DNA from: Sneathiella sp. HT1-7
GTDB taxonomy: Bacteria; Pseudomonadota; Alphaproteobacteria; Sneathiellales; Sneathiellaceae
Assembly: GCF_020731145.1 (NCBI RefSeq)
Contig: NZ_JAJFZN010000001.1
Coordinates: forward strand, 248,001-312,000
Direction: 5' to 3'
Length of the DNA: 64,000 nucleotides
The notes beneath the pieces are model-generated. The model did no database searches. It had not been told where the DNA came from and saw nothing but the letters and a program-made list of their open reading frames with translations. Both the position numbers and the translations under genes were made by a program. Of this stretch, positions 28,793 to 35,918 are shown one piece after another; the first letter of the stretch is position 1; every line of letters starts with the position of its first letter.

Positions 28793-30076
28793 ATGAAAGT
28801 ACTCGTTATTGGCTCCGGTGGTCGTGAGCACGCACTATGCTGGGCATTGAAAAAATCCCCTTTGGTTGAAAAGCTTTTCTGCGCCCCGGGTAATGGCGGG
28901 ATCAAAGAAGTTGCGGACTGCGTCGATATCGGGGCAGAAGATATCAAGAAAATCGTCGATTTCAGCCGAAAGGAAGCTGTCGACTTTGTTGTTGTCGGCC
29001 CCGAGGTCCCACTTGTGTTGGGCCTGGTCGACAAGCTTTCCGATGCGGGAATAAAGAGCTTTGGCCCACGCGCGGCGGCCGCCGCGCTGGAAGGCTCCAA
29101 AGGCTTTATGAAGGATCTTTGCCGCGAAAATAACATCCCGACCGCCGCCTATCAGCGATTTGATAAAGCCGATGAGGCGAAAGCTTATGTGGCGAGCAAT
29201 ACATTTCCGATTGTCATCAAGGCGGATGGTCTCGCTGCAGGTAAGGGCGTCATTATCGCAGAAACGTTGACAGAGGCCAATGAAACGATAGACGAAATTT
29301 TTGGCGGCCTTTTCGGCGGCGCGGGCGCCGAAATTGTGATTGAAGAATTTATGGAAGGTGAAGAGGCCAGCTTTTTCGTGCTGACCGACGGTGAAAATGT
29401 ACTTCCTCTTGCCACGGCGCAGGACCATAAGGCCGTTGGCGATGGCGATACAGGCCCGAATACAGGTGGCATGGGCGCCTACTCCCCCGCGCCGGTTATG
29501 ACGCCAGAGATGGTCGATGCGACTATAAAAACGATTATCATGCCAACCATTACCGCCCTGAAAAACCGTGGCACTCCCTTTACCGGCGTACTTTATGCCG
29601 GACTGATGATCACGAAAGATGGGCCAAAACTCATTGAATATAATGTTCGCTTTGGCGATCCTGAATGTCAGGCGCTATGTGCACGGATCAAAGGCGATTT
29701 ACTGCCAGCCCTGATAGCGACAGCAGATAAAGGGCTTGCCGATGTTACGCTTCAATGGCGGAATGAAACGGCTCTTGTCGTTGTTATGGCGGCCCAAGGA
29801 TATCCCGGATCCTATGAGAAGAATTCTGCCATTAAGGGCCTTGGCGCGGCCGCTGCAATTGACGACGTTCTTATCTTCCATGCGGGCACAAAACGCGACG
29901 GCGATGCTATCCTGGCAACGGGAGGCCGTGTGCTGGGAATCACTGGATTGGGAAAAACCGTTAAACAAGCACAAAAAAAGGCGTATAGTGGCGTCGATGC
30001 GATTGAATGGCCGCAAGGTTTTTGCCGATCAGATATCGGATGGCGGGCGGTTAAGCGCGAGGAACAGGGTCAATAA
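28793..30076 (+). CDS. purD: Phosphoribosylamine-glycine ligase
   Basis: 427-residue ATP-grasp enzyme of purine synthesis, joining phosphoribosylamine and glycine. Typical [19 protein letters not shown] start, ATP-grasp stretch [18 protein letters not shown], and [19 protein letters not shown], followed by [14 protein letters not shown]. The ATG at 28793 is chosen by homology; its ribosome site is poor (AAGGA is about 18 bases away). The next gene follows after only 20 bases. Confidence 0.97.
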
Positions 30077-30096: not shown

Positions 30097-31167
30097 ATGT
30101 CCGACGATTCAGCTCAATTTTCAGGAACAATGGAAGTGCGTGAGCGCCACAAGTTCGATGTTGCACCATTGGAAGATTATCTTAAAAAGAATGTTGTTGG
30201 CTTTAAGGGACCGCTAGAGGTTTCGCAATTTAAGGGCGGACAATCCAATCCCAGTTACATGCTGGTGACGCCTGATCGCAGGTATGTACTGCGGCGTAAG
30301 CCCCCCGGCAAACTCCTTCCGTCGGCACATGCGGTAGACCGGGAATACCGGGTACTCACGGCCCTCGCCAATACAGACGTTCCAGTGCCAAAAACATATT
30401 GCCTGTGCGAAGATGAAACCATCATCGGCACCATGTTCTATGTCATGGAATTTCTCAACGGAGATATCGAATGGGATCCGTCCCTGCCCGGCTATTCGAA
30501 AGCCAATCGGGTTGCCGTTTTTGACAGCATGAACGCTGGCATGGCTGCCCTGCATCAGGTTGATTACAAAGCCGTTGGCCTTGAAACTTTCGGCAAACCT
30601 ACAGACTATCTCGCGCGGCAAATTAATCGCTGGACGAAACAGTATCGGGCATCGGAGACAGAAACCATTGAGACAATGGATAACCTTATGGCCTGGTTAC
30701 CGGATAATATTCCGCCCGGCGATGAAACGGCGATTGTTCACGGAGATTACCGCCTCGACAATACAGTGCTTGATAAGGAAACCCACCGGGTTATGGGCAT
30801 TCTCGATTGGGAGCTGGCCACGCTGGGCCACCCAATTGCCGATTTTTCATATCATTGCATGACCTGGCGGCTGGAGCCGGAATTGTTCCGGGGCCTAAAC
30901 GGTCTGGATCTTCCCGCACTCGGCATCCCTACAGAAGAGCAATATGTTGCCACCTATTGCGAAAGAACTGGCCGCGACGGGATCGAGAACTGGGATTTTT
31001 ATGCCGCCTATAACATGTTCCGCCTCGCTGCTATCCTTCAGGGCATTGTCGGCCGCGTAAAAGACGGAACGGCCGCGAACAAGAATGCAGCGGATGTCGC
31101 GGTCCGCGTGAAGCCATTGGCGGTGCGGGGATGGGAACAGGCCGAAAAAATTATTAAGGGTGCGTAG
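30097..31167 (+). CDS. APH-fold kinase, ACAD10/ACAD11 kinase-domain-like (copy 1)
   Basis: 356-residue phosphotransferase-family (APH/choline kinase fold) protein. The catalytic loop HGDYRLDN gives H215, D217 and N222, and the metal site is ILDWE (D237). The nucleotide-binding region is SQFKGGQSNPSYML. The pattern RRKPPGKLLPSAHAVDREYR is that of the kinase domain fused to ACAD10/11 in animals, which phosphorylates 4-hydroxyacyl-CoA; bacterial LvaA in levulinate use is related. AAAGGG six bases before ATG. Tandem with a close paralogue and followed by dddP. The substrate is inferred, not shown; antibiotic resistance is unlikely. Confidence 0.82.
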   Translation: MSDDSAQFSGTMEVRERHKFDVAPLEDYLKKNVVGFKGPLEVSQFKGGQSNPSYMLVTPDRRYVLRRKPPGKLLPSAHAVDREYRVLTALANTDVPVPKTYCLCEDETIIGTMFYVMEFLNGDIEWDPSLPGYSKANRVAVFDSMNAGMAALHQVDYKAVGLETFGKPTDYLARQINRWTKQYRASETETIETMDNLMAWLPDNIPPGDETAIVHGDYRLDNTVLDKETHRVMGILDWELATLGHPIADFSYHCMTWRLEPELFRGLNGLDLPALGIPTEEQYVATYCERTGRDGIENWDFYAAYNMFRLAAILQGIVGRVKDGTAANKNAADVAVRVKPLAVRGWEQAEKIIKGA

Positions 31168-31215
31168 AACGCGCGCCTTCTCCCAAAAAGAATTAATAAA
31201 GTAAAAGGGAAGTTT

Positions 31216-32265
31216 ATGAGCGACGGAGTGGAGATCATCCCGGTTCGGGAAATGCACAAGTTCAATGAAGGAGCGTTGTTTGACTATTTGACGGAGAATG
31301 TGGACGGATTTAAGGGCCCACTCCAGATCAATCAGTTTCAGGGCGGACAGTCCAATCCGACATTTTTACTGCATACGCCCGAGCGGGACTATGTAATGCG
31401 GAAAAAGCCGCCGGGAAATCTCCTTCCCTCCGCCCATGCGGTTGACCGCGAATACAAAGTTATTTCGGCGCTTCAGAATACCGATGTTCCCGTTCCCCGG
31501 ACCTTCTGCCTGTGCGAAGATGACAGCATTATTGGAACCGCCTTTTATATCATGGAAAAGGTAGAAGGCCGTATTATCCTGTCCCCTGATATTCCAGGCG
31601 CAGAGCCACATATCCGTGCCGCAATATACGATTCATTGAACGAAGCTCTGGCCAATCTCCATAAAGTCGATATTGACACGGTAGGCCTTTCGGATTTTGG
31701 CAAGAGGGGAAACTATTTCGAGCGGCAGATCGGCCGTTGGACAAAACAATACCGCGCGTCCCAAACCGACAATCTGGAGACAATGGAGAACCTGATTAAA
31801 TGGCTCCCCGAGAATTTACCGGATAGCGATGACAGCACCATTGTCCACGGGGATTACCGGCTTGGAAATGTGATTGTACATCCAACAAAGCCAGAAGTAG
31901 TCGCGGTCCTCGATTGGGAACTTTGCACCATCGGGCACCCGCTTTCTGACCTCGCCTACAACTGTATGAATTATCATTTCATACATCCGCGAAATGGCGG
32001 TCTTGTTGGAGTCGACTTCGAGGCAACGGGCATCCCAACGGAACAAGCCTATATTGACGCCTATTGCAACCGCACAGGACGTGACGGTATTGAGAACTGG
32101 GCCTTTTACATGGCCTTTTCGCTCTTCCGCACCGCCGCTATTGTTCAGGGTGTCTATAAACGTGGACTAGACGGCAATGCCAGTTCTACGGTCGGTGAAG
32201 AGTATGCGGAATTCACGAATATGCTAGCCACACTCGGCTGGCAGAAGGTCGAAAGCCAGCTATAA
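31216..32265 (+). CDS. APH-fold kinase, ACAD10/ACAD11 kinase-domain-like (copy 2)
   Basis: 349-residue paralogue of the gene just upstream. They match over nearly the whole length, with identical stretches such as LLPSAHAVDREY, NTDVPVP and RWTKQYRAS. The catalytic set is intact: H211, D213 and N218 in HGDYRLGN, and D233 in VLDWE. The copies differ mainly at residues 115-170, likely the substrate side. AGGGA about six bases before ATG. The 48-nt gap and shared direction suggest one transcript. Two kept active sites point to different substrates or a hetero-oligomer rather than a decaying duplicate. Confidence 0.82.
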   Translation: MSDGVEIIPVREMHKFNEGALFDYLTENVDGFKGPLQINQFQGGQSNPTFLLHTPERDYVMRKKPPGNLLPSAHAVDREYKVISALQNTDVPVPRTFCLCEDDSIIGTAFYIMEKVEGRIILSPDIPGAEPHIRAAIYDSLNEALANLHKVDIDTVGLSDFGKRGNYFERQIGRWTKQYRASQTDNLETMENLIKWLPENLPDSDDSTIVHGDYRLGNVIVHPTKPEVVAVLDWELCTIGHPLSDLAYNCMNYHFIHPRNGGLVGVDFEATGIPTEQAYIDAYCNRTGRDGIENWAFYMAFSLFRTAAIVQGVYKRGLDGNASSTVGEEYAEFTNMLATLGWQKVESQL

Positions 32266-32368
32266 CTAGTCGCAGCCATGTTGCTCTATATTATAATTTT
32301 CTGATATCGTGATTTCAGTGACCACTTTTTGAGCCTGCGGCGCCCGCCTGGGCTTTGGGGGCTGGCAA

Positions 32369-33697
32369 ATGAAGCGCGATATCTTTTCGGGCCGCAAAAC
32401 CACTGGCGGTCAACTTAGTCCTTTAACAAAACCAGACGGAACGCCGCTGGATAATAACCGTGTCGAGATCGGTCCGACGCAACTCGCGTTTGACGAATGG
32501 GCGGCGGCGGGGTTGGATGTTCCCGACCTCAGTGTCATGCGCGCACAGCGTCTAGACCGTCTTGTCGCGGCACTTCAGGCGCGGGACTACGGCGGTATTC
32601 TCATGTATGATCCGCTCAACATCCGGTTTGCCTCCGACACGACGAATATGCAGCTTTGGGCGGCGCATAATCCATTCCGGGCCTGCCTTGTTTTGGCGGA
32701 TGGATATATGGTTGTCTGGGATTTCGGCGACAATGATCTACTAACTGCCTTCAACCCACTGGTACGCGAGACACGATCCGGCGCCTCCTTCTTTTATTTT
32801 ACGAGCGGGGATAAGTCCGTCGAGAATGCGGAACGGTTCGCAGCCCAGATCGATGGCTTGATGCGGGAGCATGCGGGCAGTAACCGTCGGCTTGCCGTGG
32901 ATAAGATCCAGATCCATGGCTTACGCGCCCTTGAAAGAATAGGGTTACGGATTTTTGATGGAGAGGAAGTCACGGAAAAGACTCGAGCCATCAAACAGCC
33001 GGAAGAAATCAAAGCCCTGCGATGCGCCGTCCATGCAACAGAAGTTTCAATGTGTGAAATGCAGCGCATTGCCCGGCCCGGGCTAACAGAGAATGACGTC
33101 TGGGCCGTTCTGCACGCTGAAAATATCAAGCGCGGCGGAGAATGGATCGAGACCCGGATACTTGCCTCAGGCCCGCGCACCAACCCGTGGTTTCAGGAAT
33201 GCGGTCCGCGGGTAATCGGAAATAACGAATTGCTGGCTTTTGATACGGATCTGGTCGGTTGCTTCGGTATGTGCGCGGATATTTCCCGCACCTGGTTTAT
33301 CGGCGATGGAACGCCAACAGCCGAACAAAAAAAACTGTATCAGTATGCCTATGATCATATTCAACAGAACATGAAACTTCTGGCACCGGGCGTTCCATTT
33401 AAAGAGATCGTCTTCGGCGGACATCTTCTTTCAGAGGAATTTGTGAATTCCCGCTACTCCGTGAAGATGCATGGCGTTGGTCTTTGCGATGAATGGCCGC
33501 ATATTGCCTATCCGGAAGACTATCACGAAGGGGCATTCGAGTATGAGCTGGTGCCCGGTATGGCGATTTGCGTTGAGGCTTATATCGGTGCCGAAGGAGG
33601 GGAGGAAGGCGTCAAACTGGAGGAGCAAGTCGTAATCACCGAGGAGGGTTACGAAAATATGACCCACTATCCGTTTGAGGAAATCCTGCTCACTTAA
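32369..33697 (+). CDS. dddP: DddP-type DMSP lyase (M24 fold)
   Basis: 442-residue member of the M24 metallopeptidase fold that closely resembles DddP, which cleaves dimethylsulfoniopropionate to dimethyl sulfide and acrylate. Marks include RVEIGPTQLAF (31-41), HAENIKRGGEWIETR, SGPRTNPWFQECGPR and MHGVGLCDEWP (367-377). Metal ligands D292, D294, D304, H368, E403 and E418 and the proposed base D374 are all present. Each sits three residues before its counterpart in the Ruegeria lacuscaerulensis enzyme as I remember that numbering. No signal peptide. An ordinary Xaa-Pro peptidase is the alternative, but the conserved stretches favour DddP. The stop overlaps the next convergent ORF by four bases. 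Confidence 0.85.
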   Translation: MKRDIFSGRKTTGGQLSPLTKPDGTPLDNNRVEIGPTQLAFDEWAAAGLDVPDLSVMRAQRLDRLVAALQARDYGGILMYDPLNIRFASDTTNMQLWAAHNPFRACLVLADGYMVVWDFGDNDLLTAFNPLVRETRSGASFFYFTSGDKSVENAERFAAQIDGLMREHAGSNRRLAVDKIQIHGLRALERIGLRIFDGEEVTEKTRAIKQPEEIKALRCAVHATEVSMCEMQRIARPGLTENDVWAVLHAENIKRGGEWIETRILASGPRTNPWFQECGPRVIGNNELLAFDTDLVGCFGMCADISRTWFIGDGTPTAEQKKLYQYAYDHIQQNMKLLAPGVPFKEIVFGGHLLSEEFVNSRYSVKMHGVGLCDEWPHIAYPEDYHEGAFEYELVPGMAICVEAYIGAEGGEEGVKLEEQVVITEEGYENMTHYPFEEILLT

Positions 33698-33924
33698 TGT
33701 TTTTCGGCGTCTTCAATCCTCAAATTAGCCCAACGCTGGATGCACTCCGTCGGCTCCATAACCAATCCTGCGGCTTCGCCAAGCCCAGAGACAGGCTGCA
33801 ATCCTGCATGAGCCGTCAAGTCCTGGGTTAGCCATTCACAAGGATCAAGGCTTTCATACCGATATAAAAAGCCGGCAACAATCACAATGATGCCCAGCAT
33901 TATCCAACCCAAAAACTTGATCAT
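33694..33924 (-). CDS. Small membrane protein, conserved hypothetical
   Basis: 76 residues with one N-terminal hydrophobic helix (about residues 4-20) and then YESLDPCEWLTQDL and PTECIQRW, giving two cysteines. I recall similar short proteins with a 'LDPCEWL' stretch in other alphaproteobacteria but know no function. ATG 33924 has a weak AGG about nine bases upstream. It lies between dddP (convergent, 4-nt stop overlap) and the acyl-CoA dehydrogenase (same strand, but a strong terminator separates them). Confidence 0.6.
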   Translation of the reverse strand: MIKFLGWIMLGIIVIVAGFLYRYESLDPCEWLTQDLTAHAGLQPVSGLGEAAGLVMEPTECIQRWANLRIEDAEKH

Positions 33925-34019
33925 TAAAAAGGCCTAATATTACGTCGCTATAAACAGGAACATGCCTGTATATAGGAAAAGCAGAACTTCATGCTATGGA
34001 AAAATCTGCACAGAAAAAA

Positions 34020-34047
34020 GAAGAGCTTCCCAGAAAGGAAGCTCTTC
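34020..34047 (-). terminator. Rho-independent terminator of the acyl-CoA dehydrogenase gene
   Basis: Perfect 11-base arms GAAGAGCTTCC and GGAAGCTCTTC with a six-base loop. On the minus strand the stem is followed by TTTTTTC. It begins about 30 bases after the dehydrogenase stop, the clearest intrinsic terminator in the window. Confidence 0.85.
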
Positions 34048-34075
34048 CACGTCTTTAGTACCTGAAAGCCGCAAA

Positions 34076-35278
34076 TCAATCGTGCTTTTTAAGCTCCAAC
34101 CGGCCAATCTGGTTGCGATGCACTTCGTCCGGGCCATCGGCAAGTCGCAAGGTCCGTGAATGGGCATAGGCAAAGGCGAGGCCGAAGTCATCACTAACAC
34201 CGCCCGCGCCATGCGCCTGAATTGCCCAGTCAATGATCTTACCGGTGATATTTGGTGCCACCACCTTGATCATGGCAATTTCAGCTTTCGCTTCCTTATT
34301 GCCGACCGTATCCATCATATAGGCGGCCTTCAATGTGAGAAGCCGTGCCTGTTCGATCATCGCACGAGATTCCGCAATACGTTCCAGCGTGACCGTTTGC
34401 TCCGCAATGGGTTTACCAAATGCAACGCGGGATTTCACGCGTTTGCACATTTTCTCCAGTGCACGCTCGGCGACGCCAATCTGGCGCATGCAATGGTGAA
34501 TGCGGCCCGGGCCCAGGCGACCTTGCGCAATTTCAAAACCACGCCCTTCACCCAACAGAATATGATCTGCCGGAACGCGCACATCCTTAAACTCCACTTC
34601 TGCATGACCATGCGGTGCATCGTCATAGCCAAACACCGGCAGAAAACGCTTCACATTGATACCGTCGGTATCCATCGGCACAACAATCATGGACTGCTGA
34701 TTATAGCGCGATGCAGTCTTGTCCGTTTTTCCCATGAAGATCAGAACTTTGCAGCGAGGATCATAAGCACCGGAGGTCCACCATTTAGTGCCATTGATGA
34801 CATATTCATCGCCGTCACGGGTAATTTCCGATTCGATATTCGTCGCGTCTGACGAGGCAACCGCGGGTTCCGTCATGGCGAAAGCTGAGCGAATTTCGCC
34901 ATTGAGCAACGGCTTTAACCAGCGCTCTTTCAGATCGTCATTCGCATAGCGTTCGAACACTTCCATGTTACCGGTGTCCGGTGCCGAGCAGTTGAAAACT
35001 TCCGGTGCAAAACTGACCCGCCCCATGATCTCACAGAGCGGTGCATATTCTAGATTGGTAAGGCCTGCCCCACGGTCACTTTCAGGCAGGAACAAATTCC
35101 AGAGACCTTCCGCCTTGGCCTTTTCTTTCAGCTCTTCGACAATTGCTGTCGGCTGCCAGCGATCGCCCTCATCCACCTGATCATAAAATAGCTGTTCATT
35201 TGGATAGACATGCTCATCCATAAAAGCCTGCACCCTAGCTTGCAGTTCTTTTACCTTGTCCGAATATTCGAAGATCAT
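34076..35278 (-). CDS. Acyl-CoA dehydrogenase, ACAD10/ACAD11 subfamily
   Basis: 400-residue FAD-dependent dehydrogenase. The stretches [14 protein letters not shown] and [19 protein letters not shown] are diagnostic for the ACAD10/11 group. At the position of the usual catalytic glutamate it has D381 in [10 protein letters not shown], which I recall as the pattern of that group. In animals this domain is fused to an APH kinase and removes the 4-phosphate from 4-phosphoacyl-CoA, enabling 4-hydroxy-acid breakdown. Here two kinase genes of the matching type lie 1.8 kb away on the other strand. AGGGAA seven bases before ATG. General beta-oxidation is the alternative role. Confidence 0.9.
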
Positions 35279-35343: not shown

Positions 35344-35802
35344 TTAGCGTCTTGTTTCAAAGAAATTCTTTAAAAGCGCCGCCGATTTGCTTTCCTGCAG
35401 GCCGCCGTATATTTCCGGTCGATGATGACAACTGGTCTGATCAAAGATGCGTGCACCGTATTCGACACCGCCCCCCTTCGGATCATAAGCACCAAAATAG
35501 AGCCGCCTTATTCTTGCGAGAGAAATTGCCGCTGCGCACATCGGGCAGGGCTCAAGTGTCACGTAGATATCGCAGTTCACAAGCCTTTGACTACCGATCA
35601 TATTGCCCGCCGCGCGAAGCGCCAGCATTTCCGCATGCGCGGTGGGGTCGCTTCTACCTACCATCTGGTTTCCGCAGTTCGCGATGACGCGCCCTGACGC
35701 GGTATCCACAATGATTGCCCCAACTGGCACTTCGTTGCGATGCCCGGCAATCTCGGCGGTGCTGAGCGCCATTTCCATATAATCGACAATTTCATGATCC
35801 AT
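35344..35802 (-). CDS. tadA: tRNA(adenine34) deaminase
   Basis: 152-residue zinc deaminase that converts A34 to inosine in tRNA-Arg(ACG). Zinc and catalytic residues are H56 and E58 in THAEM, and C86 and C89 in LEPCPMCAAAI. I take ATG 35802, with GCGAG nine bases upstream; the ORF extends 13 codons to a TTG. Located upstream of the rluB-rsmD pair, divergent, as is common in alphaproteobacteria. Confidence 0.95.
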   Translation of the reverse strand: MDHEIVDYMEMALSTAEIAGHRNEVPVGAIIVDTASGRVIANCGNQMVGRSDPTAHAEMLALRAAGNMIGSQRLVNCDIYVTLEPCPMCAAAISLARIRRLYFGAYDPKGGGVEYGARIFDQTSCHHRPEIYGGLQESKSAALLKNFFETRR

Positions 35803-35918
35803 GTTCGGAGACTCGCAATTCGTTCCATCGCCGTCAAGCAATAGAAATTTAGATATTTTATGGGAAGATAGTCAAAGAGGCGAGTTGAGTTGTCGGCAAG
35901 AGAGGACTAAAAGAAAGC

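Follow-up and report, generated by a model that had tools for sequence, protein, structure and literature searches.

A predicted dimethylsulfoniopropionate lyase gene of restricted distribution within a conserved ACAD10/11-type kinase–dehydrogenase block of Sneathiella

The animal proteins ACAD10 and ACAD11 carry a kinase domain and an acyl-CoA dehydrogenase (ACAD) domain fused in one chain. Pseudomonas putida has separate polypeptides instead, namely the APH-fold kinase LvaA and the ACAD10/11-type enzyme LvaC, which act sequentially on 4-hydroxyacyl-CoA. In the published descriptions of both systems, the kinase phosphorylates the 4-hydroxyacyl-CoA and the ACAD turns the 4-phosphoacyl-CoA into a 2-enoyl-CoA (PMC12440821, PMC11342911), and Burkholderia orthologues are described as able to substitute for the animal domains (PMC11342911). 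DddP is described as an enzyme that splits dimethylsulfoniopropionate (DMSP) into dimethyl sulfide (DMS) and acrylate—PrpE and AcuI acting next—and that binds metal through three Asp, two Glu, and one His, all required for activity (PMC5395565). The locus considered here lies in a 64-kb stretch (the window; contig positions 248001-312000) of the 3.83-Mb genome of Sneathiella sp. HT1-7. It features two APH-fold kinase genes, K1 and K2, a dddP gene, and an ACAD10/11-type dehydrogenase gene (hereafter ACAD), all intact open reading frames (ORFs) within 5.2 kb, with dddP between the kinases and ACAD as a preliminary description had placed it (Table 1). Very probably, a 4-hydroxyacyl-CoA kinase and phosphate-elimination pathway of the known type stands here beside a lineage-specific and metabolically separate dddP. 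Gene identity, residues, synteny, co-occurrence, and a gene relic are the observations behind this reading; the enzyme activities, the direction of gain and then loss, and the missing coupling are what we infer.

Both kinases match Pfam APH with 181 bits. The nearest solved structures are 3dxp (454 bits) and ACAD11 (278 bits; 8v3u/8v3v) for K1, and 3dxp (396 bits) and ACAD11 (295 bits; 8v3u/8v3v) for K2, nearly the whole kinase being covered in each case. The key residues named for the ACAD10/11 kinases in the published description are the catalytic D220 and N225, the CoA-binding R176, and R86 beside the Glu of helix αC (PMC12440821). Asp217, Asn222, and Arg174 of K1 and Asp213, Asn218, and Arg170 of K2 align with D220, N225, and R176, respectively, in a mapping in which the index in the PDB chain is the number of the paper minus one. 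R86 is not found at the expected index of the ACAD11 chain; the aligned stretch of both kinases contains an Arg-Glu pair (DRE).

The ACAD protein is likewise closest to the ACAD11 group: of its four best matches among solved structures, three are chains of ACAD11, at 468-473 bits, and the fourth is 4hr3, at 467 bits; no other chain scores above 136 bits. The residues described as defining the ACAD10/11 group are an upstream Arg (R626), the HCMR motif, and the catalytic Asp D753 (PMC12440821), which correspond to R254, H262-C-M-R265, and D381 of ACAD under the same offset of one in the chain index, an offset deduced from the motif. HCMR and the other motif are kept in all 22 ACADs compared, 21 from Sneathiella and one from a sister genus. 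Hence, the identification of two kinases of the ACAD10/11 pattern and of an ACAD10/11-type dehydrogenase, made earlier from the sequence alone, is confirmed. In addition, the genome contains further relatives of this enzyme: the HCMR motif is present in four of its ACADs, this one included, and missing from a fifth (43%). The three other HCMR-bearing paralogues (L012, L013, and L014, on C7, C9, and C4 of this genome) lie away from the two kinases. Nine proteins chosen from their neighborhoods, one of them without a match, comprise LysR, tetrapyrrole methylase, nitronate monooxygenase, thioesterase, flavin oxidoreductase, SnoaL, and hydrolases; the paralogues were rejected as a pointer to a link with DMSP.

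Compared with the animal proteins, the key residues of kinase and ACAD are conserved, whereas the domains are separate genes and the kinase is present twice. The term split module, used in the preliminary description, is apt insofar as kinase and dehydrogenase are separate; this arrangement is, however, not peculiar to the locus, being shared with P. putida. LvaA and LvaC are likened to K1/K2 and ACAD through their published description (PMC12440821, PMC11342911). The differences from the lva operon are the two paralogous kinases, the convergent ACAD outside the kinase operon, and the neighbors—purD, a tadA-like gene, and GATase—in place of the other lva genes; a set of lvaA-E in one operon is absent from the locus, given these flanks and an ACAD on the other strand. 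Residues, co-occurrence, and synteny support the assignment of K1, K2, and ACAD to the bacterial ACAD10/11 (LvaA/LvaC-like) pathway. K1 and/or K2 would phosphorylate the 4-hydroxyl of 4-hydroxyacyl-CoA, and the ACAD-fold enzyme would remove the phosphate and so return a 2-enoyl-CoA to β-oxidation. The pathway probably serves for burning 4-hydroxy fatty acids.

Synteny was compared in 25 genomes: 24 of Sneathiella, the window's own included, and one of the sister genus (G001). The conserved block reads xseA, then purD-K1-K2 converging with ACAD-tadA, then rluB-rsmD-mutL. The order purD-K1-K2/ACAD-tadA is present in 20 of the 24 Sneathiella genomes and in the sister-genus genome; a 21st Sneathiella genome shows it too, except that its contig start cuts into K2. 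Of the remaining three, one has ACAD on another contig (G016), one has a contig that ends after K2 (G019), and one yielded no kinase (G018). In G016, the kinase pair (C1:416148-418249) and ACAD (C5:65445-66641) lie on different contigs, and the block can thus be broken within the genus. At E <= 1e-60, kinases were detected in 23 of the 25 genomes; the two misses are a genome that is 56% complete and the one whose dddP contig begins inside K2.

The pairing extends beyond the genus. Among 385 alphaproteobacterial genomes, the kinase and ACAD each occur in 142 and are found together in 133, against 52 expected (Fisher p 7e-80, a value inflated by shared ancestry). In 104 genomes, both genes are among the 150 places listed; they are at most 6 kb apart in 45 of these, and convergent in 35 of the 45. 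In 20 loci of other families, chosen for kinase/ACAD proximity, tandem kinases, or a high-scoring kinase, purD stands upstream of the kinase within ~2 kb in 13 and tadA behind ACAD in 10. Because purD and tadA recur in these loci, the block is taken to be old.

K1 and K2 are 54% identical and are the only such kinases of their genome at E <= 1e-10. Two kinases are present in 10 of the 20 other-family loci; since each of these has one kinase that groups with K1 and one that groups with K2, K1 and K2 form an old pair. The K2 group stands apart from K1 across families with a support of 100 in a midpoint-rooted tree. The kinase had earlier been called duplicated: the two are indeed paralogues, but a local duplication was rejected because the K1 and K2 groups each span several families. 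The two kinases probably differ in substrate. In two of the ten loci, from two other genera of one family (L166 and L172), the second kinase is only 38-39% identical to K2, and its long branch hints that its substrate or role has changed. In one of the 21 Sneathiella genomes with the conserved order (G005; L072, G005:C12:1185978-1186694), K2 is frameshifted after ~240 residues, and no damage is apparent in K1 or ACAD; this genome may be able to do without K2, or the assembly may be in error. A further candidate for a broken K2, with a stop inside (G009), was rejected, as the frame merely ends two residues early.

The product of dddP scores 692.3 bits with the NCBIfam equivalog NF043017 (cut-off 600). 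Its closest described counterpart is Roseobacter DddP (PDB 4rzy and 4b28), and 252 of the 421 residues aligned with chain 4rzy are identical (60%). Positions 295, 297, 307, 366, 371, 377, 406, and 421 of 4rzy, which we take to be active-site positions, are D, D, D, Y, H, D, E, and E, and the same residues are aligned in the window's protein. Alignments with PDB chains identify 366 and 377 as the positions altered in chains 4s00 and 4s01. The equivalents D292, D294, D304, H368, E403, and E418, together with Y363 and D374, are kept in all nine Sneathiella DddPs. The protein differs from Roseobacter DddP by being five residues shorter near residue 237 and by its genomic place; otherwise, it is an ordinary member. 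It also falls in Pfam Peptidase_M24, and a peptidase-like relative devoid of lyase function would account for that; such an identity is highly improbable given a score 92 bits above the equivalog cut-off and the presence of all six metal ligands and of the counterparts of Y366 and D377. The earlier identification of a DddP-type DMSP lyase hence holds. The gene is under purifying selection, with a ratio of nonsynonymous to synonymous substitution rates (dN/dS) of 0.045-0.067 in the three of five pairs with finite dS. DddP would cleave DMSP to DMS and acrylate, and the acrylate would be handled by general routes, a YhdH/AcuI-type gene lying elsewhere in the genome. All 24 Sneathiella genomes have a YhdH-type gene (TIGR02823), irrespective of the presence of dddP; every copy scores above the cut-off, and one has an internal stop; R. 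pomeroyi acuI is described as resembling the YhdH family (PMC3338564).

In contrast to the kinase/ACAD order, dddP is patchily distributed. DddP matches at E <= 1e-100 were found in 10 of the 25 genomes, one of which, in the sister genus (48% identity), is located elsewhere. In Sneathiella, dddP occupies the K2/ACAD gap in nine of 21 intervals, in all nine at the same place and in the same orientation; 12 intervals lack an intact dddP. One of these 12 (G020) contains a C-terminal dddP relic in the same gap, detected in a search of the 683-base gap and covering the last 46 aligned residues (76% identical, E 1e-12). A relocation of dddP in the empty-gap genomes was rejected, as these show no DddP match at 1e-100, four of them being only 66-86% complete. 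The gap of a further genome (G011; L061:2683-5564) features a MOSC-domain gene and ORFs that by eye resemble an AraC-type regulator, a YHS-type protein, and a glyoxalase-type protein.

Outside the genus, no association of DddP with the other genes is seen. A scan of named genomes with six peptides of the window's DddP, leaning to close relatives and with flanks of at most 8 kb, or less where the contig was small, returned 79 DddP loci. The 75 with 52-93% identity were checked for the window's genes, four with 25-26% being left out; kinase and ACAD are neighbors in five, all records of Sneathiella. An ACAD match also lies 4-5 kb away in two SAR116 loci, but at 25-26% identity it is unspecific. 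In the 385 class genomes, DddP shows no significant co-occurrence excess with kinase or ACAD: the 62 genomes in which DddP was matched include 25 with ACAD (p 0.57) and 27 with the kinase (p 0.25), against an expectation of 23 for each, and of the 23 with a DddP of >=50% identity, eight have ACAD (p 1.0) and ten the kinase (p 0.51), 8.5 being expected for each. Thirty DddP-holding genomes have the kinase or ACAD; among the matches listed, DddP lies within 10 kb of either only in two Sneathiella genomes, the next nearest distance being 18.5 kb (places completed for 16 genomes; three lower-scoring kinase/ACAD matches in G025, G110, and G386 left out). Neither an account of a DddP-kinase-ACAD unit nor one of dddP in Sneathiella was found among the open-licence papers searched; five papers mention Sneathiella together with DMSP, but their titles do not concern this matter.

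These distributions bear on the proposal that the four genes form a catabolic cluster for hydroxy acids and DMSP-derived carbon. Its kinase/ACAD half stands on residues, co-occurrence, and synteny; the membership of DddP does not, given nine of 21 intervals, a relic, and no excess. Likewise, a lack of neighborhood conservation, named with the proposal as grounds for refuting it, is not seen for the kinases and ACAD but is seen for DddP, whose placement beside these genes was not found beyond Sneathiella in the 75 named loci or among the places listed for the class sample. A true catabolic unit restricted to the dddP-holding clade would convert DMSP-derived acrylate or 3-hydroxypropionate into a hydroxyacyl-CoA for K1/K2 to phosphorylate and ACAD to eliminate. 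The identical strand and slot in nine of nine holders and the intact active site of DddP would suit such a unit, which we nevertheless consider most unlikely: genomes in which dddP is missing or has decayed still have the kinases and ACAD, no association is seen outside the genus, and ACAD lies on the opposite strand with a terminator-like site of its own. Moreover, DMSP gives a C3 acid, which has no C4, whereas the ACAD10/11 kinases are described as acting on the 4-hydroxyl of the acyl-CoA. A specific version, in which K2 of the dddP-holding clade would phosphorylate 3-hydroxypropionyl-CoA from acrylate hydration and ACAD or a relative of it would remove the phosphate and so form acryloyl-CoA—a phosphate-activated dehydration route for DMSP carbon—appears slightly less probable still. 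The comparison of residues, synteny, and co-occurrence revealed nothing that ties DMSP cleavage to the 4-hydroxyacyl-CoA pathway.

The gap between kinase and ACAD is variable in other families as well. In seven other-family loci, it contains PAS histidine kinases, GST, DUF2817, sigma-70, or PhoX; six of the seven loci belong to the purD block, the one with PhoX lying outside it. The PAS histidine kinase recurs in three loci, GST in two, and DUF2817 in two. Among the 10 cargo proteins scanned (one from Sneathiella G011; other gap ORFs, three more ORFs of the G011 insert, and the L162 gap left out), no shared metabolic theme is seen. In L173, L175, and L177, the kinase-ACAD gap is short. A role of DddP as part of the ancestral module was rejected, since 12 of 21 Sneathiella gaps lack an intact dddP and the 20 other-family loci show no DddP match; in Sneathiella, dddP seems to be a further example of the changing cargo of this gap.

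The purD, K1, K2, and dddP genes share a strand, with intergenic gaps of 20, 48, and 103 nucleotides (nt), respectively. ACAD cannot share a transcript with dddP because it lies on the opposite strand, convergent with it. The hairpin behind ACAD has the longest stem among the terminator-like sites of the region, whereas the sole such site in the K2-dddP gap is weak, with five pairs (32272-32284). Overall, neither terminator-like sites (10 in the scanned region versus 9 in shuffles) nor promoter-like sites (8 versus 7.6) are in excess. An alternative that is possible, though we lean away from it, is that dddP is expressed through read-through from purD-K1-K2 or from an intergenic promoter and is kept in place since this expression suits it, without metabolic coupling. 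The common strand, the short gaps, and the placement in nine of nine copies are consistent with this; against it, the K2-dddP gap aligns only with those of G007, G022, and G004 among five dddP-holders compared, and promoter-like sites are no more numerous than in shuffles. It is compatible with the separation of the two systems, to which it would merely contribute an explanation of why dddP sits where it does.

The history of dddP was judged from gene and species trees. The Sneathiella copies form one clade (support 0.999 in one tree and 98 in another), within which two groups are consistent with the species tree, although several nodes are weak (38-45). One acquisition followed by several losses is favored because place, strand, and the monophyletic gene tree agree: dddP would have entered the gap between the convergent K2 and ACAD in a single lineage of Sneathiella, some members of which later lost it. 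Two independent gains in one slot are less preferred, but parsimony alone does not favor the single gain: on the species tree, unordered parsimony requires two changes (two gains) for the extant genes, or three if the G020 relic counts as past presence, and one gain with three losses costs four by manual count. Two points speak against the separateness of dddP: a co-transcription of dddP with the kinases is possible, given the same strand, the 103-nt gap, and the weak terminator-like site, and the constant place and orientation of the nine copies could be explained by selection for co-expression. Even so, the adjacency of dddP is most likely positional, with at most read-through from the purD-K1-K2 direction.

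Table 1. Features of the locus (positions in the window)
Feature	Position	Strand	Description
K1	30097..31167	+	APH-fold kinase, LvaA/ACAD10-11 kinase-domain type
K2	31216..32265	+	second APH-fold kinase, old paralogue of K1
dddP	32369..33697	+	predicted DMSP lyase DddP; lineage-specific, presumably inserted between K2 and ACAD
ACAD	34076..35278	-	ACAD10/11 (LvaC)-type acyl-CoA dehydrogenase homologue
Terminator-like hairpin	34019..34048	-	13 pairs and T run, just downstream of ACAD; consensus match only
76-residue ORF	33694..33924	-	marks dddP insertion boundary; outside the main finding
purD	28793..30076	+	context gene, 20 nt upstream of K1; start from TIGR00877 match
tadA-like deaminase	35344..35841	-	context gene upstream of ACAD, same strand; 125 bits, below the 150-bit cut-off

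The small ORF at the boundary of dddP overlaps the end of that gene by 4 nt and has a hydrophobic N terminus. Each of the 21 further Sneathiella stretches searched contains a match with 50-97% identity, whether dddP is there or not; the ORF has no Pfam match and was not found in the sister-genus stretch or in five other-family loci.

The idea that DMSP cleavage is linked to 4-hydroxyacyl-CoA catabolism, tempting as it is, is thus weakened. Genes for a bacterial ACAD10/11-type kinase and dehydrogenase are common in Alphaproteobacteria, where purD and tadA often share their block, and the age of the two-kinase form raises the question of the substrate of each kinase paralogue. Some Sneathiella species, in addition, gain a predicted DMSP lyase.

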